A stretch of DNA of 64,000 nucleotides, taken from Cyanobium sp. Morenito 9A2 (lineage in GTDB: Bacteria; Cyanobacteriota; Cyanobacteriia; PCC-6307; Cyanobiaceae). Where the stretch lies: assembly GCF_024345575.1 (NCBI RefSeq), contig NZ_JAGQBJ010000001.1, positions 310,001 through 374,000 on the forward strand. The letters run 5' to 3'. Below, piece after piece: positions 2,109-46,017 of this stretch (position 1 is its first letter; every line of letters starts with the position of its first letter). The notes below the pieces were generated by a model. The model made no database searches. It was given only the letters and a program-made list of their open reading frames with translations, and had not been told where the DNA came from. A program made the translations under genes and the position numbers.

Positions 2109-3179
2109 TCAGATCGATGGCGGGGCCGTTGGGGGAGGCTCCAGTTGCAGGGTGCTGTGGGCGATCCCCAGGGTCGCGAGCTGCCCTTTCGCCCTCTGGA
2201 GCAGTTCCAGGTCGTCGCCTGCTCCAGGGGTGCGGATGATGTGGGCGGTGAGGGCATTCTGGGAGGTGCTCATGCCCCAGATGTGCAGATGATGCACCTC
2301 GATCACCCCCGGCAACGCGAGCAGGGCGCTTTCCACCGCCTGGCGATCGATGGCTTGGGGCACCCCGTCGAGGGCCACCGCCAGGGATTCCTTGAGCAGC
2401 GACCATCCGCTCCAGGCCACCGCCAGGCCCACACCGATGGCGGTGATCGCATCGAGCACGTTCCAGCCCGTGAGGCTCACCAGCAGGGCGCTGGCCAGCA
2501 CCGCCGCCGAGACGGCCGCATCGGTGAGCAGGTGCACCACGGCGGCACGGCGGTTGAGGTCGTGCTGGTGGCCATGGCCGAACAGGCGGGCCGAGAGCAG
2601 GTTGACGACGATGCCCGCGGCGGCGGCCCAGGCCACGGGACCGGCCGAGACCTCCACCGGCCGCCCCAGCCGCTGAACCCCCTCGACGATCACCACGGCG
2701 GCGGCCATCAGGATCAGCACCGCATTCATCAGCGAGGCCAACTGGGTGCTGCGCCCGTAGCCAAAGGTGAAGCGCTCGCTGGCGGGGCGGGCGCTCAGCC
2801 GTTCGGCCCCCCAGCCCAGGAGCAACCCAGCCACATCACCAAGGTTATGGACCGCATCGCCGATCAGGGCCAGGGAGCCGAAGCCGATACCGATCGCCAG
2901 TTGCAGGCCCGAGAGGGCGCTGTTGAGGATGACGCTCCAGCGGAAGGCCGCCGCTGAACCCTGGCGGTGGTCATGCGGCCGGGGCGGGGGCTGCCGCTGA
3001 AGCTCTACGGCGGGATGGCCGTGGTCATGGTCATGGCTGTTGCCCGGCCCATGGCTGTTGCCCGGCCCATGGCTGTTGCCCGGCCCATGGCTGTTGGCAG
3101 GCCCATGGCTGTTGCCAGGCCCATGGCTATCGCCAGGGTCGTGGTCGTGGTCGCTGGTGGGGCAGGGGGAGGGGGCCAT
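2109..3179 (-). CDS. cation diffusion facilitator with His-rich N-terminal repeat
   Basis: A CDF-family metal(II)/proton antiporter (ZitB/CzcD-like), 356 residues. Residues 1-70 are a His-rich tail built from a repeated six-residue unit GPGNSH followed by HDHDHGH. Six membrane helices follow. The first metal site is seen as HNLGD in helix 2 and HLLTD in helix 5, the normal HxxxD pattern of Zn/Co-type members. The cytoplasmic metal-binding domain is C-terminal (VHHLHIWGMS). It lies 9 bases after the GDT1-type gene, so both cation exporters are probably made together. The unusual feature is the tandem repeat encoding the tail, which could vary in length between strains. Confidence 0.93.
   Translation of the reverse strand: MAPSPCPTSDHDHDPGDSHGPGNSHGPANSHGPGNSHGPGNSHGPGNSHDHDHGHPAVELQRQPPPRPHDHRQGSAAAFRWSVILNSALSGLQLAIGIGFGSLALIGDAVHNLGDVAGLLLGWGAERLSARPASERFTFGYGRSTQLASLMNAVLILMAAAVVIVEGVQRLGRPVEVSAGPVAWAAAAGIVVNLLSARLFGHGHQHDLNRRAAVVHLLTDAAVSAAVLASALLVSLTGWNVLDAITAIGVGLAVAWSGWSLLKESLAVALDGVPQAIDRQAVESALLALPGVIEVHHLHIWGMSTSQNALTAHIIRTPGAGDDLELLQRAKGQLATLGIAHSTLQLEPPPTAPPSI
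3033..3140. repeat. 18-bp tandem repeat encoding the His-rich tail
   Basis: Read on the plus strand the unit is ATGGCTGTTGCCCGGCCC. Three identical copies (3033-3086) are followed by two with small changes (3087-3122) and a diverged sixth copy (3123-3140). Because the period is 18 bases, copy gain or loss keeps the CDF reading frame and adds or removes one GPGNSH unit. Confidence 0.95.
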
Positions 3180-3188
3180 GGGTGGTCG

Positions 3189-3830
3189 TCAGGGAAGGGC
3201 CTGGCGCAGGGCCACCAGGGCGAAGGCCAGAAACAGGCCACCGCTGAGTCGGAACAGCAGCCGTTCACTCAAGCGCCCGCCGATCCAACGGCCTGCCCCC
3301 ACCGCCAGGGCCGTGACCAGGGCGTGGCCCAGCAGGCTGCCCGCCAGCAGGGCGGCGAAGCCGAAGCCAGGGCCGGTGGCCAGGAAGATGGTGGCGAACT
3401 GGGTGCGATCGCCCAGTTCAGCGATGAACACCAAAGCGAAGGCCTCGCGAATCACGCCCCAGGCCGTGGCCGAGGGGTGGCGGGCTTCGGCCTGCTCCAC
3501 CAGTTCTTCGGCCTCCTCGGCCTCCTCTGCGGCCGCGTTCGCCCCCAGGCCCTGGGCATCGATCAGGAGCTTGAGCCCGAAGGCTCCGAACAGCAGCGCC
3601 GCCAGCCAAGGCACCAGGGCCAGGGGAAGCAGACTGCGCAGGCCATAGCCCAGACCCAGGGAGATCACCGTGACGGCCGCCAGGGCGGCGAAGGCGCCGC
3701 TGAACACCCAGCTGGCCCGGTGGCGGGCCGCCAGCAGCAGGGCGACGAAGAAGGTCTTGTCCCCCAGTTCCGCCAGGGTGATGGCGGTGAAGCTGGAGCC
3801 GAAGGCGGCAAGCGCCGGGTCGGGGGGCAT
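3189..3830 (-). CDS. TMEM165/GDT1 (UPF0016) family Mn2+/Ca2+ exporter
   Basis: A 213-residue membrane protein with the two inverted family signatures E-x-G-D-(K/R)-T: LAELGDKTFF in the first half (about residue 20) and IAELGDRTQF in the second (about 120). Both repeats are in one chain, as in the cyanobacterial manganese exporter Mnx, rather than split into two half-size proteins. An acidic Glu/Ala-rich linker (about residues 92-103) separates them. Mnx-type proteins move Mn2+ out of the cytosol and protect against Mn overload; that role is inferred here. It sits between the flavin monooxygenase (23 bases upstream) and the CDF exporter. Confidence 0.92.
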   Translation of the reverse strand: MPPDPALAAFGSSFTAITLAELGDKTFFVALLLAARHRASWVFSGAFAALAAVTVISLGLGYGLRSLLPLALVPWLAALLFGAFGLKLLIDAQGLGANAAAEEAEEAEELVEQAEARHPSATAWGVIREAFALVFIAELGDRTQFATIFLATGPGFGFAALLAGSLLGHALVTALAVGAGRWIGGRLSERLLFRLSGGLFLAFALVALRQALP

Positions 3831-3853
3831 CGGCAGCGCTCGGGGCCGGGGAT

Positions 3854-5086
3854 TCAGGATCCCACGCCGCTCGGCAGCGGCAGGCCGTCACGGAGCAGAC
3901 GCTGCTGGTGGATCCAGTGGCGTTTCAGCAGCACTCCCGCCACAGGCGCTCCCAGGGCGAGGGCGCAGCGCAGGGCGCCCTGGGAGCGCAGCAGCTCTCC
4001 CCGGGCCGCCTCCTGGGCCTGCAGACCCTGTACGCAACTGATCTCCGGGAACCGGGCCGCCTGGATCCGCTCCAGGGCCCCATCGAGGGTCGCTGGATCC
4101 GGCCCACCGCCTACCCAGAGCGGCGCCAGCAACCGGGCGGCCACCAGGCTGTCCCGCAGGGCCATGTTCAGCCCCTGGGCCCGCACCGGACTCATCGGGT
4201 GGGCCGCATCGCCCAGCAGCAGCAGCCCTCTCCGCTGCCACAGGGGACAGCGGCCCACCTCCACGTTCAGCCTCACCGGGCCCACCAGGGCCCCGGCCTG
4301 CTGGCGCAGGTGTCGGGCCAGGGGTTCGGGGGCCAGCTGGGCAAAGGTTTCGCACCAGTCCTGGGGTCCTCGCTGCTCCGTGGTCGCGGCCGCCTTGCCC
4401 TTGTTCACCACCCAGCCCAGCTGCAGCTCCCCCGCTCTGGTGCCGGCGAACAGGCTGCAGACCTGGCCCCGGGCCACCAGGATGGTGAAGCGGTTCGATC
4501 GCTCGAATTCAGGCGCACTCGGCAGCCGGAACCAGAGCACATCGATCGGTGACCCCAGGGCGTCGAGGGCCAGGCCGGCCCGCTGGCGCACCAGCGAGCG
4601 TCGCCCATCGCTGCCCACCACCAGGGCGGCCTCCAGGCAGCGGCCATCGGCCAGGCGCACGCCGCTGATCCGACCCCCCTGCTCGATCAGATCGGCCACG
4701 GCCGTGCCCGGCAGCCAGGTGAAGCCCGGCAGCGCCCGGGCCCGCTCCACCAGGGCCTCCAGCAGGGGCCCCTGGGCCACCAGGGTGCAGGGGCGGGCCG
4801 AACCGAGCGGTTCATCGGCGCTGAACAGCTCCCGGCCCTCGATCTGGAAACTCCAGCCCTCCAGAGTGCGTTGGGGCAGCTCCGCCAGCAGCGCCTCCAG
4901 CCCCATGGCGGCGAGGGCGTCCAGGCCCGAGGGCATCAGCGCTTCGCCGCGGAACTGACGGCTGAACTCCTTGGCAGCCTCGATCAAGGTGACGGGCACG
5001 CCGGCGCGGGCCAGTTGCAGGGCCAGGCTGGCGCCGGCCGGGCCCGCCCCCACGATCACCACCGGCGCTGATTGAGGGGAGTTCAT
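3854..5086 (-). CDS. FAD-dependent aromatic-ring monooxygenase-like oxidoreductase
   Basis: A 410-residue flavoprotein of the UbiH/p-hydroxybenzoate hydroxylase class. The N-terminal Rossmann motif VIVGAGPAGASLALQ is followed by an acidic residue after the second strand (VTLIEA). The second FAD signature GDAAHPMSPVRAQGLN lies near residue 290. It overlaps the MFS gene by ATGA, so the two are translationally coupled. That suggests a hydroxylase acting on a compound exported by, or related to, the EmrAB-type pump, for example in detoxification; the substrate cannot be told from sequence. The last 60 residues have no recognised motif. Confidence 0.88.
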   Translation of the reverse strand: MNSPQSAPVVIVGAGPAGASLALQLARAGVPVTLIEAAKEFSRQFRGEALMPSGLDALAAMGLEALLAELPQRTLEGWSFQIEGRELFSADEPLGSARPCTLVAQGPLLEALVERARALPGFTWLPGTAVADLIEQGGRISGVRLADGRCLEAALVVGSDGRRSLVRQRAGLALDALGSPIDVLWFRLPSAPEFERSNRFTILVARGQVCSLFAGTRAGELQLGWVVNKGKAAATTEQRGPQDWCETFAQLAPEPLARHLRQQAGALVGPVRLNVEVGRCPLWQRRGLLLLGDAAHPMSPVRAQGLNMALRDSLVAARLLAPLWVGGGPDPATLDGALERIQAARFPEISCVQGLQAQEAARGELLRSQGALRCALALGAPVAGVLLKRHWIHQQRLLRDGLPLPSGVGS

Positions 5087-6660
5087 GGCTGCAGGCGGCG
5101 GGGGGCGCGCAGCAGCAACACCAGCGGGATGGCCGCCAGGAACACCAGCGCCAACAGGTGGAAGACATCGCCGTAGGCCAGCAGGGCCGCCTGGCCGTTG
5201 ATGCTCGTATCCACCAGCTTCAGGGCGCGCCGGGCGGCCAGCTCCGGATCCACACCCTGCTGCTGGAGCAGCAGCTGCAGCTGCTCCAGGCGTTCCCTCA
5301 GCCCGATGTCGAGGGCGCCGGCGGCTTCGGTGAGCCGGGCCCGGTGCTCGGCCTCGTGGTGGCTCAGCTGGGAGGTGAGCAGGGCGATGCCGAAGCTGCC
5401 CCCAAGCTGGCGGGTGAGGTTGTAAAAGCCGCTGCCGGCGTTGATCTCCTCGGGGGGCAGATCCCCCAGGGCCGCCAGGCTCAGGGGCAGGAACATCAGC
5501 ACCGTGCCGATGCCCCGGAAGATCAGCGGCCAGAACAGGCTGTCCTCGCCGGTGCCGGGGTTGATCGAGGCCAGGGCGAACATCACCAGGCTGGTGCAGA
5601 GGCTGCCGGCGGCGATCGCCTTGCGGGGGTCAATCTGTTGCACCTTCTTGCTCAGCACCAGCATCGTGGCGCCGGAAGCCAGGGCGCTGGGGAGCACCAG
5701 CAGGCCCGTCTGGATGGCCGTGAAGCGCAGCACCGACTGGGCGTAGATCGGGATCAGAAAGACGGTGCCGTAGAGCCCCAAGCCGACGATCATTGAAAAC
5801 AGGCTGCCCACCGCCAGGCTGCGGTGACGCAGCACCCGCAGGTCCACCGCCGGCCGCTCCCGGCTCAGCTCCCAGGCGATGAACAGCGGCAGGGCGATCA
5901 CAAAGGTGAGCGTCAGGGCGACGATGCCCCGGTCTTCGAACCAGGCGTATTGCTCCCCCTGCTCCAGCACCACCTGGAGCGAAGCCATCACGCCGGTGAG
6001 CAGGGCGATGCCGATCCAGTCGACGGAGGCCAGGGCCGGGGGCGGTTTGGGTTCATCCGCCGGCAGGGAGCGCAGGGCCATCAGCACCGCCAGGATGCCG
6101 AAGGGCAGGTTGATCAGGAAGATCCAGCGCCAGCCCAGCAGATCGGTGAGGTAACCCCCCAAGGTGGGACCCAGGGCGGGGCCGGTGATGATCCCCAGCC
6201 CGAAGATCGCCTGGGCGAACCCCTGGCGGTCCTTCGGAACCGCCTCAAACAGGATCGCCTGGGCCTTGGCCAGCAGACCGCCCCCCAGCAGCCCCTGGAG
6301 AATCCGTGACGCCACCAGCACCGGCAGGTTGGGGGCCAGGCCGCAGAGCACCGAGGCGGCGGTGAAGCCCGCCAGGGAGAACACGAAGTAGCTGCGCCGG
6401 CCGAAGCCATCGGCGAGGAAGGCGGTGAGGGGGAGGATCACCACGTTGGCGATCGCGTAGCCGGTCACCACCCAGCCCACCTCCGCCAGGGTGGCCCCCA
6501 GGTTGGCCTGGATGCTGGTCAGGGCCACGTTGACGATGCTGGTGTCCAGCACCTCCAGGAACGCCCCGAGCGAGGCGGTGGCGATGATCAGCCAGACCGC
6601 TGGCGTCAGCGGTGTTTTCCCGGGAGCGGCGGCCAGCGTGCTGGCCAGGGAGGAGGCCAT
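5083..6660 (-). CDS. DHA2-family multidrug efflux MFS transporter (EmrB-like)
   Basis: A 525-residue, 14-helix major facilitator of the drug:H+ antiporter 2 family. It shows motif A after helix 2 (LADGFGRR), motif C in helix 5 (GPALGPTLGGYLTD) and the TSIVNVAL motif early in helix 1. It is one base after the EmrA-like adaptor gene, the usual EmrAB arrangement for tripartite export across the Gram-negative envelope. The outer-membrane channel is not in the window. A predicted coiled segment of about 40 residues rich in Leu, Glu and Gln (about residues 440-480) lies in the loop before the last helix, as in other EmrB proteins. Confidence 0.93.
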   Translation of the reverse strand: MASSLASTLAAAPGKTPLTPAVWLIIATASLGAFLEVLDTSIVNVALTSIQANLGATLAEVGWVVTGYAIANVVILPLTAFLADGFGRRSYFVFSLAGFTAASVLCGLAPNLPVLVASRILQGLLGGGLLAKAQAILFEAVPKDRQGFAQAIFGLGIITGPALGPTLGGYLTDLLGWRWIFLINLPFGILAVLMALRSLPADEPKPPPALASVDWIGIALLTGVMASLQVVLEQGEQYAWFEDRGIVALTLTFVIALPLFIAWELSRERPAVDLRVLRHRSLAVGSLFSMIVGLGLYGTVFLIPIYAQSVLRFTAIQTGLLVLPSALASGATMLVLSKKVQQIDPRKAIAAGSLCTSLVMFALASINPGTGEDSLFWPLIFRGIGTVLMFLPLSLAALGDLPPEEINAGSGFYNLTRQLGGSFGIALLTSQLSHHEAEHRARLTEAAGALDIGLRERLEQLQLLLQQQGVDPELAARRALKLVDTSINGQAALLAYGDVFHLLALVFLAAIPLVLLLRAPRRLQP

Positions 6661-38760: not shown

Positions 38761-39066
38761 CTAGATCGAGGCCGCCAGGGCATTGATCTTTTGGCGGCGG
38801 GAGGCCAGTAGCAGTTTTTCGCCCTGCTGCATCAGTTTGTACACACCTTTGTCGATCACCTCGTAGAACACCAGGCTGCCCTCGGGGCGGCGGCGCACCA
38901 CCCCTGCGATGGTGAGAAGCTTCAGGTGTTTGGAGACCAGCGCCTGGCTGAGGCCGGTGCGCTCCACCACGGCCGTGACATTGAGGGCGCCGCCGCGCAG
39001 GGTGTCCAGCACCGCCAATCGGTTCGGTTCGGAGAACACCTTGAAGTAGTCGGCGAGGGCCTCCAT
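38761..39066 (-). CDS. ArsR-family transcriptional regulator
   Basis: A 101-residue winged-helix protein: ALADYFKVFSEPNRLAVLDT, recognition region RTGLSQALVSKHLKLLTIAG, then the wing RRRPEGSLVFYEV. It has no cysteine and none of the ELCVC-type metal sites, so it does not sense metals in the usual ArsR way; the signal is unknown. It lies 200 bases from the divergent hemerythrin-acsF-desaturase genes, and an identical-type element lies before the heme oxygenase gene. I infer that it controls this tetrapyrrole set. It also heads the transcript for the pentapeptide protein. Confidence 0.92.
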   Translation of the reverse strand: MEALADYFKVFSEPNRLAVLDTLRGGALNVTAVVERTGLSQALVSKHLKLLTIAGVVRRRPEGSLVFYEVIDKGVYKLMQQGEKLLLASRRQKINALAASI

Positions 39067-39244
39067 GGGGCAGGTCGAAGCGGGGGGGAAGGGCGTGGGC
39101 GCCGCCCGACCGGCAAGACGTCCTCTGCATCGTGAATCTAAGCCGAGCGTGCCCGCATTGACCTGGGGCTGTTGCGGATCTGCTTTATCACGTTGGTGGC
39201 ATGGGACTGGGGTCTGCCCAGGCGGCTTCGGCCTGTATTATCAT

Positions 39245-39265
39245 GATGTCGTTATGTCGTTGATC
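39245..39265 (+). promoter_or_regulatory. shared 21-bp element, copy 1 (hemerythrin-acsF)
   Basis: The element is GAT, two variable bases, then CGTTATRTCRTTGATC. Copy 1 ends one base before the hemerythrin ATG at 39267. It matches copy 2 (43775-43795) at 17 of 21 positions by direct comparison. Its centre TTATGT could serve as a -10 box, which would put the RNA start almost on the ATG. It is a candidate operator or core promoter for the divergent ArsR protein or another oxygen-responsive factor. Confidence 0.6.
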
Positions 39266-39266
39266 G

Positions 39267-39725
39267 ATGGCCACTGCGCTGTTGACGCCCCGGGTGCTGG
39301 ATCGTCCGCTGCAGTCCTTCTGCTGGCCCCGGCACTGGTCCGAGCGCCGCCCCCTCCTGGAGCGCCAGCATGATCGCCTCGAAGCCCAGCTCGCGGGAAT
39401 GATCGAGCGGCATGGCGACGGCCGCGTTGAGCTCGAACCCGACGAGGCCCAGAGGGAATGGAGGGACGGCGCGCGGCTGCTGCGGCAGCTGAGGCTGCAC
39501 CTGAGGCTTGAGGAGCGTTGGCTGGCCGAGGCCCGGGTCCTTTGCGGCGGTCACCGCGTCAGTCACCGCCAGGCGGCCGAGAGGGCGATCACGGGCTTTC
39601 GCGAGGGCGGTCACAGGCGCCTGGCGCGGCTGCAGTGGCTGTTGGAGATCCAGGTGTGGTTCGACCACCACCGCCTGGGGGCCGATGCTATCGCCTACGC
39701 CCGCGCCCAGGGCACCAGCGGTTGA
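39267..39725 (+). CDS. bacteriohemerythrin-type O2-binding protein
   Basis: A 152-residue single-domain protein with all seven di-iron ligands of hemerythrin at the classical spacing: His35 (LLERQHDRL), His78 and Glu82 (LRLHLRLEERW), His96 and His100 (GGHRVSHRQ), His135 and Asp140 (WFDHHRLGADAI). It should bind O2 reversibly at a non-heme di-iron centre. It is the first gene ahead of acsF, whose reaction needs O2, so delivery, buffering or sensing of O2 for that step is a likely job. An in-frame stop at 39261-39263 fixes the start at 39267 or later, with no ribosome site, so the RNA may be leaderless. Confidence 0.88.
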   Translation: MATALLTPRVLDRPLQSFCWPRHWSERRPLLERQHDRLEAQLAGMIERHGDGRVELEPDEAQREWRDGARLLRQLRLHLRLEERWLAEARVLCGGHRVSHRQAAERAITGFREGGHRRLARLQWLLEIQVWFDHHRLGADAIAYARAQGTSG

Positions 39726-39780: not shown

Positions 39781-40800
39781 ATGGCCACCTCCGCTCCCCA
39801 CTTGCGCGAAGACCTGCTCACCCCGCGTTTTTACACCACCGAAATCGAGAAGGCGGCCCGCACCGACGTGGAGTCCCAGCGGTCGGCCTTCGAGGCGATG
39901 CTCGCCGAGATGGAGGCCGACTACAACCGCGACCACTTCGATCGTCGGGTGCCCCTTGATCGCCTGCGCGATCTTTCTCCCGAGGAGAAGGAGGCCTACG
40001 AGAGCTACCTGGTGCGCTCCTGTGTGTCGGAGTTTTCAGGCTTTCTGCTGTTCAAGGAGCTCTCCAGGCGGCTCTTTCAGGTGGGCCGCACGGAGCTGGG
40101 CCGCCTGTTCCAGCTGATGGCCCGCGACGAGGCCCGCCACGCCGGCTTCCTCAACCGCGCTCTGGTGGCCGAGGGCATCCAGCTGGATCTGCCCAGCCTC
40201 AGCACCCGCCGGCCGATCACCTGGTTCCCGCTCAACTGGGTGCTGTATTCCGTCTTCCTCTCCGAGAAGATCGGCTATTGGCGCTACATCCTGATCGATC
40301 GCCACCTCAGGGCCCACCCCGATCACCACATCGCCCCCCTGTTTGATTTCTTCGAGCCCTGGTGCCAGGACGAAAACCGCCATGGCGACATCTTCAACCT
40401 GCTGATCCGCTGCTGGCCCAACCTGCGCCAGGGCTTCAGGGGCAAGTTGCTCAGCCGCTTCTTTCTGTGGTCGGTGTTTCTCACCCACAGCCTCACCGTG
40501 GCCGAGCGGCACGATTTCTATGAACTGCTGGGCATGGAGGCCAGCCGCTTCGACGCCGAGGTGATGCGGCAGACCAACCGCACAGCCCGCCGGGCCTTCC
40601 CCTGGGTGTTCAACCTCGATTCAACCGACTACTTCCGCCTCCGTGACCAGATCGTGGCGTCATTTCTTGAGATCAAGGCGGCCAGGCAGCAGCCGCCAAG
40701 CCTGCTGAAGCCCCTGCAGCAGCTGGGCCGCAGGGTGCGCTTTGCTGGTCTGCTTGCCCGGCAGTTTGCCCAGCCGATGGTGATCGCGGAGGCCGCATGA
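39781..40800 (+). CDS. acsF: Mg-protoporphyrin IX monomethyl ester (oxidative) cyclase
   Basis: A 339-residue di-iron enzyme that closes the fifth ring of chlorophyll using O2. Carboxylate/His ligands are seen in LMARDEARHAGFLN and WCQDENRHGDIFN. The family start (EDLLTPRFYTTEIEKAA) and the MEADYNRDHF block are intact. The start is ATG 39781, 55 bases after the hemerythrin stop. The length is slightly below that of the main aerobic form, and the neighbours suggest the micro-oxic isoform (ChlA-II/AcsF2). The main copy, if any, is elsewhere. It overlaps the desaturase gene by ATGA. Confidence 0.95.
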   Translation: MATSAPHLREDLLTPRFYTTEIEKAARTDVESQRSAFEAMLAEMEADYNRDHFDRRVPLDRLRDLSPEEKEAYESYLVRSCVSEFSGFLLFKELSRRLFQVGRTELGRLFQLMARDEARHAGFLNRALVAEGIQLDLPSLSTRRPITWFPLNWVLYSVFLSEKIGYWRYILIDRHLRAHPDHHIAPLFDFFEPWCQDENRHGDIFNLLIRCWPNLRQGFRGKLLSRFFLWSVFLTHSLTVAERHDFYELLGMEASRFDAEVMRQTNRTARRAFPWVFNLDSTDYFRLRDQIVASFLEIKAARQQPPSLLKPLQQLGRRVRFAGLLARQFAQPMVIAEAA

Positions 40801-41686
40801 GTGCCGGCTTTGCGCCCATGAGGATTCAACCGCTGGTGCCTGCGGGTCTGCGCACCAGCTGGGCCACGGTGGGTTTCATGGTGGTGCTTCATCTGCTGAC
40901 CCTGGTGGCGCTGTTGCCCCGTTTCTGGAGCCCGCTGGCACTGGTTGTGTGGCTGGTGCTCGATTGGCTCACCGCCTGCATCGGGGTGACCCTCGGTCAC
41001 CACCGCATGCTGGCCCACCGTTCCTTTCGGGTCACGCCGTGGTTGGAGGCACTGATCGTCGCCTGCGGCACCTTGCGTTGCCAGCACGGTCCGATGGCAG
41101 GGGCGGGCCTGCACCGCCACCACCAGCTCCACTCCGACGATCCGGTCGACCACCACAACAATCATCTGGGCCTCTGCTGGAGCCATTTCGGCTGGATGCT
41201 CAAGGAGGTCCCGGCCAAGACCCATGTGGCGCGGCTCATCCCCGATCACCACGCAACCGCGACGACCTCTGGCTTGATCGCCATTTCCTGCTGCTTCAGA
41301 TTCCCTTAGTCGTCTTTCTGTGGTGGCTGGGGTCAGTCACGGGCGCCGGTGGTCTTGCCCTGGTGCTCTGGGGCTTTCCCCTGCGACTGGTGATCGCCTA
41401 CCCCTTCACCTGGAGGGTGAATTCGGCCACCCACCGCTGGGGCTGCATCGGCTACCCGAGCGGTGACCACTCGCGCAACACCTGGTTGGTGGCCCTGGTC
41501 ACCTTTGGCGAGGGTTGGCATAACAACCACCACGCCTTTTCCAGCAGCGTCCGCATGGGATTCCGTTGGTGGGAGCTTGATCCCCCCTGGTGGCCCATCG
41601 TTGCCCTGCGCCGGCGAGGCCTGGTGCGCCATGTCCGTCTGGCCCCTGTTCTTCAGCCGCCGCGTCTTCGGCATCGCTCGTCATGA
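40797..41686 (+). pseudogene. acyl-lipid/acyl-CoA desaturase (DesC/DesF-like), frameshifted
   Basis: The first half (frame 0, to TAG 41307-41309) has the first His box GHHRMLAHRSF. The second half, in frame 2 from about 41250, has LWLDRHFLLLQIPLVVFLWW, the third His box HNNHHAF and the end RLRHRSS, stopping at 41686. A single-base change near 41247-41256 separates them. The second His box also deviates: LHRHHQLHSD has Gln where HRxHH needs His, and the preceding Glu-Trp is Ala-Gly. Frameshift plus altered box suggest loss of function; a sequence error alone would not explain both. The gene overlaps acsF and the glycosyltransferase gene by ATGA. Confidence 0.8.
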
Positions 41687-43346: not shown

Positions 43347-43754
43347 TCAGGCGCTGGTCCTGAGCTCCAGGGGGATGTGCGGAGCGGCTGGCGGCAGCTG
43401 GGAGGCCCAACGCTTCAGCCGCTCGGGAAGGGCGATCACCGTGCGTTGGGTTCCACCAAAACGCATGTGCAGCCAGGTGATCACCCCGGCATCGCTCGAG
43501 GCGACGCCCTCCAGTTGCCCGTCTGCGCTGCCGAGGCCAAGCTCGGCGATGGCGCTGGGGGTGAGGTACCAGAGGTCCCCGTGCCTGGGGCGGTCGCGGC
43601 GTTCCTTGAACAGTTCCAGCAGCTGGCCATCGCCGCTCAGCTGGCCCTGGGGTGCGAGCAGCAACGGGAGCTCCAGGAGGCTGTCCGTGGAGGGCGAGAA
43701 CGGGAGGGCAACCATGGGAGATGGGCGGATGACGAAGTTGCAACGAAGCGGCAA
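43347..43754 (-). CDS. conserved-looking hypothetical protein
   Basis: A 135-residue soluble protein without membrane helix or signal peptide. Notable stretches: LLLAPQGQLSGDGQLLELF, GDLWYLTPSAIAELG, GVITWLHMRFGGTQRTVIAL and the end PHIPLELRTSA. No family was recognised. It is divergent from the heme oxygenase gene, so the shared element at 43775-43795 lies between the two starts and could act on both. An internal ATG at 43715 would remove 13 residues. Codon use is like its neighbours. Confidence 0.6.
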   Translation of the reverse strand: MPLRCNFVIRPSPMVALPFSPSTDSLLELPLLLAPQGQLSGDGQLLELFKERRDRPRHGDLWYLTPSAIAELGLGSADGQLEGVASSDAGVITWLHMRFGGTQRTVIALPERLKRWASQLPPAAPHIPLELRTSA

Positions 43755-43774
43755 CGCCGCAACAGCATCACAAC

Positions 43775-43795
43775 GATAGCGTTATATCATTGATC
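43775..43795 (+). promoter_or_regulatory. shared 21-bp element, copy 2 (heme oxygenase-hemN)
   Basis: GAT, two variable bases, then CGTTATATCATTGATC; 17 of 21 positions equal copy 1 at 39245-39265. The centre is GATA-N6-TATC, a short inverted repeat, and TTATAT inside it could be a -10 box about 55 bases upstream of the heme oxygenase ATG. The surrounding bases are unusually AT-rich for this genome. Confidence 0.6.
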
Positions 43796-43841: not shown

Positions 43842-44543
43842 ATGACAGCCACCATCCCCGAAGCGATCTCCAGTCATGCCCACGGCGCCGATGCTGTGCT
43901 CCGCAAGGGGTTCGGCCCCCGGGTGCGCAAGCTCCACGCCCGCATCGGCGCCGCCCATCGCCAGGTGGAGAGCATGGCTTTCTCGAGGGCCCTGCTGGAC
44001 GGCCAAGTGGAGCCGCTGCAGCTGGCGGCCCTGATCCGCACCCTGGCCCCCGCCTATGCGCTGATTGAGGAGCGGGGCCCCGATCTGGCCTCTGCCTTGG
44101 GCGCCACCGATCTGCCTTGGAAGGCCCTGCGCCGAGGCGCCGCCCTGGAGGCTGATCAGAAGGCGCTGGCTGCGCTACCCGCCACCCCCGCGTCGGCGGC
44201 GGCCCGCGGCTGGCTGGAGCAGCTTGCCACCCTGGCCCAGGGGGCCCCCCACCGCTTTCTGGCCCATGTGTACGTGCGCTACGGCGGAGATCTCGCCGGT
44301 GGGCAGCAGTTGGCGGAGCAGGCCAACGCCATCCTGGCGGCCCACGGCCTGAACCCCCTGCAGTTCTGGCACTTCGAGCAGCCCGTGGCCGCGCTCAAAG
44401 TGGCCTTTCACGACGCCTTCGAGCAGTTGGAGCTCAGTGGGGCCGAAGAGGCCGAACTGCTGGACGAGGCCGAGGCCGCCTTCCTCGCCACCCAGGCCCT
44501 GCTGGCGGAGCTCGCCGAGCTGTCCCTGGCGCCCACCGGCTGA
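43842..44543 (+). CDS. heme oxygenase (biliverdin-forming)
   Basis: A 233-residue heme oxygenase that opens heme to biliverdin IX-alpha, the precursor of phycobilins. The proximal heme ligand is the His in RIGAAHRQVESMAF. The distal helix is VRYGGDLAGGQQLAEQ, and FWHFEQP follows. Residues 1-22 before the core are variable. The adjacent hemN and the shared element with acsF suggest the low-oxygen isoform (HO2). The start is ATG 43842, about 46 bases after the shared element, with no clear ribosome site. It probably forms one transcript with hemN, 58 bases downstream. Confidence 0.94.
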   Translation: MTATIPEAISSHAHGADAVLRKGFGPRVRKLHARIGAAHRQVESMAFSRALLDGQVEPLQLAALIRTLAPAYALIEERGPDLASALGATDLPWKALRRGAALEADQKALAALPATPASAAARGWLEQLATLAQGAPHRFLAHVYVRYGGDLAGGQQLAEQANAILAAHGLNPLQFWHFEQPVAALKVAFHDAFEQLELSGAEEAELLDEAEAAFLATQALLAELAELSLAPTG

Positions 44544-44601: not shown

Positions 44602-46017
44602 ATGTCCACCACCCTCGACGCCACGCCAGCCACCCGCCCGCCCGCCTGTTCCCGGGCGGTCCCATCCCTGCCACCGCCGACCACACCCCTTGAGCTTCTG
44701 CTCAAATACGACCGGCCCGTGCCCCGTTACACCAGCTACCCCACGGCGGCGGCGTTTACCACCACCGTGGGCGCCGCTGATCTCGGTGCCCAGCTGGCAC
44801 AGCCCAGCAGCGCACCGCTTTCGCTCTACGTGCATGTGCCCTTCTGCCGCCATGCCTGCTGGTACTGCGGCTGCAACCGGATCACCACCCAGCTGGGATC
44901 GAAGGTGGTGGGCCCCTACCTGGCGGCCCTGGCCAGGGAGCTGGAGCTGATCGCCGCGGCCATGCCCCAGTGCCGGCGACTGGCCCAGCTCCATTGGGGC
45001 GGTGGCACCCCCAACTACCTCAACGCTGACGAGCAGACGATCCTCTGGGGTCTGATCGCCCAGCACTTCGATCTGGATGACGATCTGGAGGCCTCGATCG
45101 AAGTCAACCCGGAGTTCCTCAGCGAAGCCTCCGCCCTGCATCTGCGCGCGCTGGGCTTCAACCGCCTCAGCTTCGGCATCCAGGACGCCGATCCCGAGGT
45201 GCAGCGGGCGGTGAACCGGGTGGTGGCAGTGGAGCAGTTGCGGCGCTCGATGCAGTGGCTGCGGCAGGCAGGGTTCGAGAGCGTGAACGTGGATCTGATC
45301 TGCGGTCTGCCGCTCCAGACGTCCGGGCGCTTTCGCTCCACGTTGGAGTTGGTGGAGGAGTTGCGCCCCGATCGCCTCTCACTCTTCTCCTTCGCCTACC
45401 TGCCCCAGCAGTTGCCCCTCCAGCGCAAGATCGCCGCCGAGGATCTGCCCAGCCAGTGGGAACGCCTGGCGATGCTCGATGACGCCAACCGGGGTCTCAC
45501 GGCCAATGGCTATGACGCCATCGGCATGGACCACTACGCCCTCGCCACTGACAGCCTGGCGGTGGCGGCCCGGGAGCGGCGGCTGCACCGCAACTTCCAG
45601 GGCTACACCACCGGTGGCGAGCTTGATCTGCTGGGCGTCGGCCCGACGGCGATCAGCCAGTTCCCCCAGCTGTTCAGCCAGAACCAGCGGGACCTCAAGG
45701 CCTACTACCGGGACCTCGAGCAAGGCCGGCTGCCGGTGGAGCGCGGCCTGGTGGTGAACGATTCGGCGGTGCTGGAGCGCCGCGCCCTGATCAAGGAGGT
45801 GATGTGCCATTTCCAGGTGGCGATGGATCTGAAGCGGTTCGCCCTCGAATGGAGTGACCTCCAGGCTTTCGAAGCCGACGGACTGGTCCGGCTGGAGCGT
45901 CAGGCCGACCGGGGCCTGGTGGAGGTCACCACCCAGGGCCGCTGGCTGATCCGCACCATCGCGGCGGTTTTCGACCCCGGCCAGCGGCGGCAGGCCAGCG
46001 GATCCCGTCTGGTCTGA
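44602..46017 (+). CDS. hemN: oxygen-independent coproporphyrinogen III oxidase
   Basis: A 471-residue radical-SAM enzyme that converts coproporphyrinogen III to protoporphyrinogen IX without O2. The 4Fe-4S motif CxxxCxxC lies within CRHACWYCGCN, with the extra Cys of true HemN. Other motifs: LHWGGGTPNYL, IEVNPEF, RLSFGIQD, DLICGLPLQT and the C-terminal GMDHYAL and LLGVGPTAIS. Length and N-terminal extension fit true HemN (not HemW). It lies after heme oxygenase, in keeping with use when oxygen is low. The start is ATG 44602; a hairpin follows the stop. Confidence 0.95.
   Translation: MSTTLDATPATRPPACSRAVPSLPPPTTPLELLLKYDRPVPRYTSYPTAAAFTTTVGAADLGAQLAQPSSAPLSLYVHVPFCRHACWYCGCNRITTQLGSKVVGPYLAALARELELIAAAMPQCRRLAQLHWGGGTPNYLNADEQTILWGLIAQHFDLDDDLEASIEVNPEFLSEASALHLRALGFNRLSFGIQDADPEVQRAVNRVVAVEQLRRSMQWLRQAGFESVNVDLICGLPLQTSGRFRSTLELVEELRPDRLSLFSFAYLPQQLPLQRKIAAEDLPSQWERLAMLDDANRGLTANGYDAIGMDHYALATDSLAVAARERRLHRNFQGYTTGGELDLLGVGPTAISQFPQLFSQNQRDLKAYYRDLEQGRLPVERGLVVNDSAVLERRALIKEVMCHFQVAMDLKRFALEWSDLQAFEADGLVRLERQADRGLVEVTTQGRWLIRTIAAVFDPGQRRQASGSRLV

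Follow-up and report, generated by a model that had tools for sequence, protein, structure and literature searches.

The hr locus

The window, a 64,000-nt stretch of the Cyanobium sp. Morenito 9A2 genome, carries a gene cluster in which a short reading frame, here called hr, is followed directly by the weaker-matching of the genome's two acsF genes (acsF2). The cluster contains the following features:

38761..39066, − strand: ArsR/SmtB-type regulator without cysteine, divergent from hr (NF033788, 71.9 bits, cut-off 55)
39239..39256, + strand: operator/promoter-like element TATCATGATGTCGTTATG, just before hr; sole match in the window
39267..39725, + strand: hr, predicted diverged hemerythrin of 152 aa (ORF, ligands, predicted fold, structural matches)
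39781..40800, + strand: acsF2, second, ChlAII-side oxygen-dependent Mg-protoporphyrin IX monomethyl ester cyclase (TIGR02029, 353.7 bits; NF010172, 435 bits; both above cut-off)
40797..41686, + strand: desC/desF-like fatty acid desaturase, frameshifted, in two overlapping frames (by sequence resemblance and the DesF precedent, PMC4500134)
41590..42453, + strand: conserved ORF, glycosyltransferase-like by eye, conserved from near residue 38; no NCBIfam match
43347..43754, − strand: small ORF between acsF2 and the heme oxygenase gene, conserved in relatives; no Pfam or NCBIfam match
43769..43785, + strand: second operator-like element CACAACGATAGCGTTAT, before the heme oxygenase gene and related to TATCATGATGTCGTTATG
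43842..44543, + strand: heme oxygenase (ho; PF01126, 83.2 bits, cut-off 23)
44602..46017, + strand: hemN, oxygen-independent coproporphyrinogen III oxidase (TIGR00538, 467.6 bits, cut-off 325)

The hr reading frame starts with ATG and stops with TGA. In 251 genomes from the GTDB family of the window, a protein search yielded 29 true homologues, including the window's own, with identities of 39–54% to the window protein; a weak match in L032 proved to be unrelated. The original prediction assigned seven iron ligands to hr, and all seven are present where it placed them (H35, H78, E82, H96, H100, H135 and D140, in the order H, HxxxE, HxxxH, HxxxxD). H78 is kept in 28 of the 29 homologues, with Gln in the remaining one, and the other six ligands are kept in every homologue. 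Further residues are invariant across the family (W24, R80, R84, W85, C93, A141, Y144 and A147). Between close pairs, dN/dS is about 0.15–0.65, and nonsynonymous divergence is below synonymous divergence in all those listed, a pattern pointing to a fast-evolving gene under constraint. The homologues, the invariant ligands and dN/dS below 1 rule out a chance ORF at 39267–39725.

The surroundings of the iron site are remodelled. Nearly all members have WFxxHR in place of the WLxxHI of McHr and DcrH-Hr, so that Phe132 and Arg136 (28/29) stand where the usual Leu and Ile flank the iron site. Only L031 departs clearly from this pattern, with Leu and Thr at these positions. Because of the Phe-for-Leu and Arg-for-Ile replacements beside the iron site, reversible O2 carriage by hr is not to be assumed.

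Family assignment and predicted fold

Curated sequence models do not recognize the window protein. It has no match to Pfam Hemerythrin (PF01814) or to the bacteriohemerythrin model NF033749, and its match to TIGR02481 (E = 0.05, 13.7 bits) falls below the cut-off of 51.75, where such PF01814 and TIGR02481 cut-offs are a convention of the model libraries rather than a biochemical feature. A PF01814 search of the window's own genome found nothing. Other members come closer: at E < 0.1, 26 of the 29 match PF01814 (best 1.7e-5) and 18 match TIGR02481 (best 2e-7), while three match NF033749 (best E = 0.019). As the family lies below all curated cut-offs, its genes are probably annotated as hypothetical, and the identity of hr needs independent support.

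We obtained such support from structure prediction. An AlphaFold (AF2) model built from the 29-row alignment has a mean pLDDT of 90.1 and forms a confident, hemerythrin-like, up-and-down four-helix bundle (helices 24–51, 58–88, 94–114 and 118–137). When structures were realigned to this model with VIA-align, the top seven were all hemerythrins (Z 13.7–14.7, 114–118 residues, 2.0–2.2 Å), including the best match, DcrH-Hr 2awc (Z 14.7, 2.2 Å, 118 residues, 17% identity), and Methylococcus bacteriohemerythrin 4xpx (Z 13.9, 2.1 Å, 114 residues); myohemerythrin 2mhr scored Z 11.6. Unrelated helical bundles follow the hemerythrins from Z 12.5, so the fold alone would be marginal evidence. In the aligned ranges, H35 of hr coincides with the His, and H135/D140 with the His/Asp, of 2awc and 4xpx.

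Other searches returned little. Foldseek of the model against the PDB gave no significant match, the family profile retrieved nothing related among PDB sequences, and hhalign of the family against one classical cyanobacterial hemerythrin produced a weak alignment. The assignment therefore rests on the VIA-align ranking, the ligands and the weak HMM matches of family members. Together, the predicted fold and the seven ligands in matching order make a strong case that hr is a hemerythrin, and the conserved residues mark it as a new picocyanobacterial subfamily with invariant positions of its own. Of the earlier label 'bacteriohemerythrin', the hemerythrin part is upheld by ligands, fold and structural match; the curated bacteriohemerythrin models do not call the protein.

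Distribution of hr and its link to acsF2

We found that all copies of hr occupy the same genomic position. A C-terminal part of hr at a contig edge (G220) brings the total to 30 genomes, and in all 30 the gene lies directly 5′ of a second, low-oxygen-type acsF; a place directly upstream of acsF had originally been noted for the window. Of the 28 cases in which the spacing could be measured, 16 show the stop codon of hr overlapping the acsF2 start, by 1 nt or 4 nt; in the window, acsF2 starts at 39781, 55 nt after the hr stop codon. Distances between hr proteins and between AcsF2 proteins are correlated (r = 0.76).

Counting as acsF2-positive those genomes with a copy at least 69% identical to that of the window, fragments included, we obtained 66 genomes, 36 of which have no hr in the acsF2 cluster. 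Among the approximately 185 genomes of the GTDB family without acsF2, none has an intact hr. A naive hypergeometric calculation, which ignores shared ancestry, gives P ~9e-21 for the co-occurrence of hr with acsF2. On the acsF2 tree, the distribution of hr is patchy, requiring about nine changes at minimum, and rows without hr are nested inside clades that have it (L058, L059 and L061; L044). L044 keeps an apparent relic of hr, seemingly an internally deleted copy. The hypergeometric probability and the several presence changes on the tree reject a random placement of hr relative to acsF; in relatives of the window, its placement is far from random. In G030 (L093:1501-1600), a 29-residue relic of hr with the H35-region sequence QWPRTWAKQQVLLEVHHDRLEATLS lies away from acsF, and the sole acsF match in that genome is a 64%-identical copy.

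Searches reaching beyond this family gave no member outside it. Across 386 genomes of the phylum, the hr profile detected two intact members, that of the window genome and one more, and both belong to this GTDB family. We also considered a mobile or viral origin and rejected it, as searches of viral contigs, phages and plasmids returned no match. A general cyanobacterial pairing of hemerythrin with acsF was likewise rejected: by eye, among the PF01814 and acsF matches listed for the 386 genomes, none lay closer together than about 9 kb, so that no other cyanobacterium had, among these listed matches, a hemerythrin gene a few kb from acsF.

The genomic link between hr and acsF is stronger and more specific than the original prediction could know. 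These distributions suggest that hr was probably ancestral in the acsF2 cluster and was repeatedly lost, no intact copy having been found elsewhere. Because it is repeatedly lost, hr is an accessory gene; because about half of the acsF2 clusters are without it, AcsF2 cannot require it.

The acsF2 cluster and its putative regulation

The second acsF belongs to a low-oxygen cluster type. In our tree, the genome's other acsF copy falls inside an 11-row ChlAI clade (100/100) and acsF2 falls outside. AcsF2 is 45–55% identical to ChlAII-side copies, several of which adjoin HO-hemN, and 41–44% identical to the ChlAI clade. It retains both ExxH motifs (DEARH and DENRH). These comparisons place acsF2 with ChlAII rather than ChlAI, on a long branch and short of strict orthology. 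In most relatives, heme oxygenase and hemN genes accompany acsF2, as they do the ChlAII-side copies of other families.

Several neighbouring features deserve mention in their own right. A homologous desaturase stretch lies downstream of acsF2 in relatives; in the window it is frameshifted near 41240–41290, where frame 1 ends ...ARLIPDHHAT and frame 3 goes on ...DDLWLDRHFLLLQIPLVV, the split gene being either a pseudogene or a sequencing error. Homologues of the ORF at 43347–43754 lie beside acsF where the sole strong acsF match is a 61–66%-identical copy, and in L072, L074, L089 and L090 they do so with no heme oxygenase match nearby. In L064 (G003, 2500–5582), arsR lies upstream of a tandem acsF pair whose identities to acsF2 of the window are 64% and 76%. 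This arrangement may represent a step between the acsF2 cluster and those genomes in which the 61–66%-identical copy is the sole strong acsF match.

The divergent arsR gene is kept in clusters with and without hr, its protein being 67–88% identical in most relatives and without cysteine in 24 of them. The element TATCATGATGTCGTTATG occurs once in the window at up to three mismatches (0.01 expected by chance), and elements of its type lie between arsR and acsF2 or hr in most relatives; clusters without hr retain both arsR and the TATCAYGATGTCGTTAT element. The elements at 39239–39256 and 43769–43785 are related imperfect palindromes and likely operator sites for the divergent ArsR-type protein. 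The presence of two related elements suggests that a single regulator acts on hr-acsF2 and ho-hemN as separate transcripts. Only about 11 nt separate a -10-like GTTATG hexamer from the hr start codon that follows it (39251–39267), with similar spacing in several relatives, and the hr mRNA may be nearly leaderless.

The heme oxygenase gene had been placed in one operon with hr and acsF. It belongs to the same cluster; however, it lies 3 kb downstream, behind the opposite-strand ORF at 43347–43754, and has its own operator-like site. Since this separate element suggests a separate ho-hemN transcript, the same-operon claim is doubtful and probably wrong.

A possible role in O2 supply to AcsF2

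O2 is a substrate of AcsF, heme oxygenase and the desaturase. O2-using enzymes made in microoxia are useful only if O2 arrives, and hr, standing first on the acsF2 transcript, is in a good position to bind it and increase what is available locally. By analogy with methanotroph bacteriohemerythrin, we propose as the best explanation, at slightly less than even probability, that hr encodes an accessory diiron hemerythrin of the low-oxygen acsF2 operon that would deliver or buffer O2 for AcsF2. In microoxia, the divergently encoded ArsR-type protein, as putative regulator in this lineage, would turn on hr-acsF2 and, separately, ho-hemN. The hemerythrin would be produced beside AcsF2, in many relatives through translational coupling, and would load iron and bind O2 at its diiron site, most likely buffering this O2 or passing it to AcsF2 and possibly also handing it to heme oxygenase and the desaturase. 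Oxygen-dependent formation of the chlorophyll E-ring could thereby continue when O2 is scarce.

Several points weigh against such delivery. With hr missing from 36 of 66 acsF2 clusters after several losses, AcsF2 works without it; the Phe132/Arg136 pair (28/29) could alter or abolish reversible O2 binding; and a 17-kDa carrier adds O2 capacity only when abundant. Both the changed pocket and the recurrent losses speak against hr being a simple, essential carrier. The nearest precedent is also contested: the bacteriohemerythrin of Methylococcus feeds O2 to pMMO membrane fractions in vitro, but bhr knockouts in Methylotuvimicrobium buryatense 5GB1C and Methylomonas LW13 had no significant liquid-culture phenotype (PMC12607906), so the best-studied delivery model is itself disputed.

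We weighed three other functions against O2 delivery. It is unlikely, in our estimate, that hr is a sensor of O2 (or of NO or redox state) or a co-regulator that signals to the ArsR-type regulator or to AcsF2 activity. Sensing roles have been described for hemerythrin domains (DcrH; PMC4919030), hr has as its neighbour a regulator that, without cysteine in 24 relatives, shows no obvious redox switch, and Arg136 together with the extra invariant residues W24, R80, R84, W85, C93 and Y144 suggests a specialized surface. Yet clusters from which hr has disappeared still carry both arsR and the operator-like element, showing that regulation can do without it, and hr is a single domain with no fused signalling partner that adjoins acsF2, often overlapping it, and not arsR.

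The ligand set of the hemerythrin-fold protein YtfE differs from the 5-His/Glu/Asp set of O2 carriers, and hr has the latter. This counts against hr acting as an iron reserve, or as a diiron donor in the metallation or repair of AcsF2, when iron or O2 is poor, as does the retention of AcsF2 in the half of lineages without hr. The idea, which we rate a little below that of a sensor, does gain from AcsF2 being a diiron protein that keeps both ExxH motifs and needs two irons, from translational coupling that fits a maturation partner, and from the proposal of YtfE as an iron donor (PMC9052748). We give the lowest probability to a scavenger or peroxidase that removes O2 or peroxide and in this way shields oxygen-labile HemN or limits the harm done by free porphyrins. 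The cluster does encode HemN, which is a radical-SAM enzyme, and a polar Arg136 at the Ile position could favour peroxide chemistry. However, hr pairs with acsF2 and not with hemN, whose place is on the side of heme oxygenase, with a separate upstream site; no partner reductase is seen, and a scavenger would take O2 away from the very enzymes of its cluster that use it.

Returning to O2 supply, a bolder version would be that picocyanobacteria evolved a dedicated O2-handling subunit, with a remodelled Phe/Arg pocket, that supplies or tunes the low-oxygen AcsF by direct contact; we regard this version as doubtful. If it were true, hr would be, to our knowledge, the first O2 carrier serving tetrapyrrole synthesis. 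The pairing had been put forward as one not known to be described, and our literature search (hemerythrin with acsF, cyanobacteria, Cyanobium and cyclase substrate; few subscription journals covered) found no paper on it. Physiology has yet to explain how phototrophs continue oxygen-dependent chlorophyll synthesis once O2 is exhausted, and a gene found intact only next to the gene of a low-oxygen cyclase offers a concrete candidate for a partner that delivers or senses O2. A functional role for hr in low-oxygen chlorophyll synthesis is plausible, and would extend the disputed idea of an O2 carrier feeding an oxygenase from methanotrophs to photosynthesis. Natural clusters with and without hr provide matched comparisons.

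Comparison with known systems

The closest structural match to hr is DcrH-Hr of Desulfovibrio vulgaris (2awc/2avk), which shares its ligand spacing in the C-terminal helix. DcrH-Hr is found within a chemotaxis receptor, as one of its domains, and signalling has been proposed as its role, whereas hr stands alone. Other cyanobacterial hemerythrins (PMC4919030; PF01814 matches) belong to the same superfamily, although most are not of the classical type and, among the matches listed, none lies beside acsF.

Bacteriohemerythrin 4xpx of Methylococcus capsulatus (Bath) resembles hr in its four-helix bundle, ligand order and single-domain architecture. Each of the two proteins is associated, when O2 is short, with a pathway built on an O2-dependent metal oxygenase, the genomic partner of hr being acsF2 and not pMMO. 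Their sequences are only about 10% identical. The motif WLVNHI of 4xpx and 2avk stands at the position of WFxxHR in hr; Leu114 of 4xpx corresponds to Phe132 (28/29), and the Ile after the last His to Arg136. Leu114 regulates a water tunnel in the Methylococcus protein, according to the title of Chen et al. 2015 (cited in PMC12607906).

In Synechocystis 6803 and Synechococcus 7002, a chlAII-ho2-hemN set, which includes desF in 7002, is induced at low O2 by ChlR, and Synechocystis chlAII mutants accumulate the cyclase substrate in microoxia (PMC4500134). The window cluster is similarly composed of a second acsF, heme oxygenase, hemN, a desaturase and a divergent small regulator gene. Its regulator is of the ArsR type and not ChlR, while occupying the place where ChlR sits in 7002. 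Unlike the chlAII set of 6803 and 7002, half of the acsF2 clusters carry hr.
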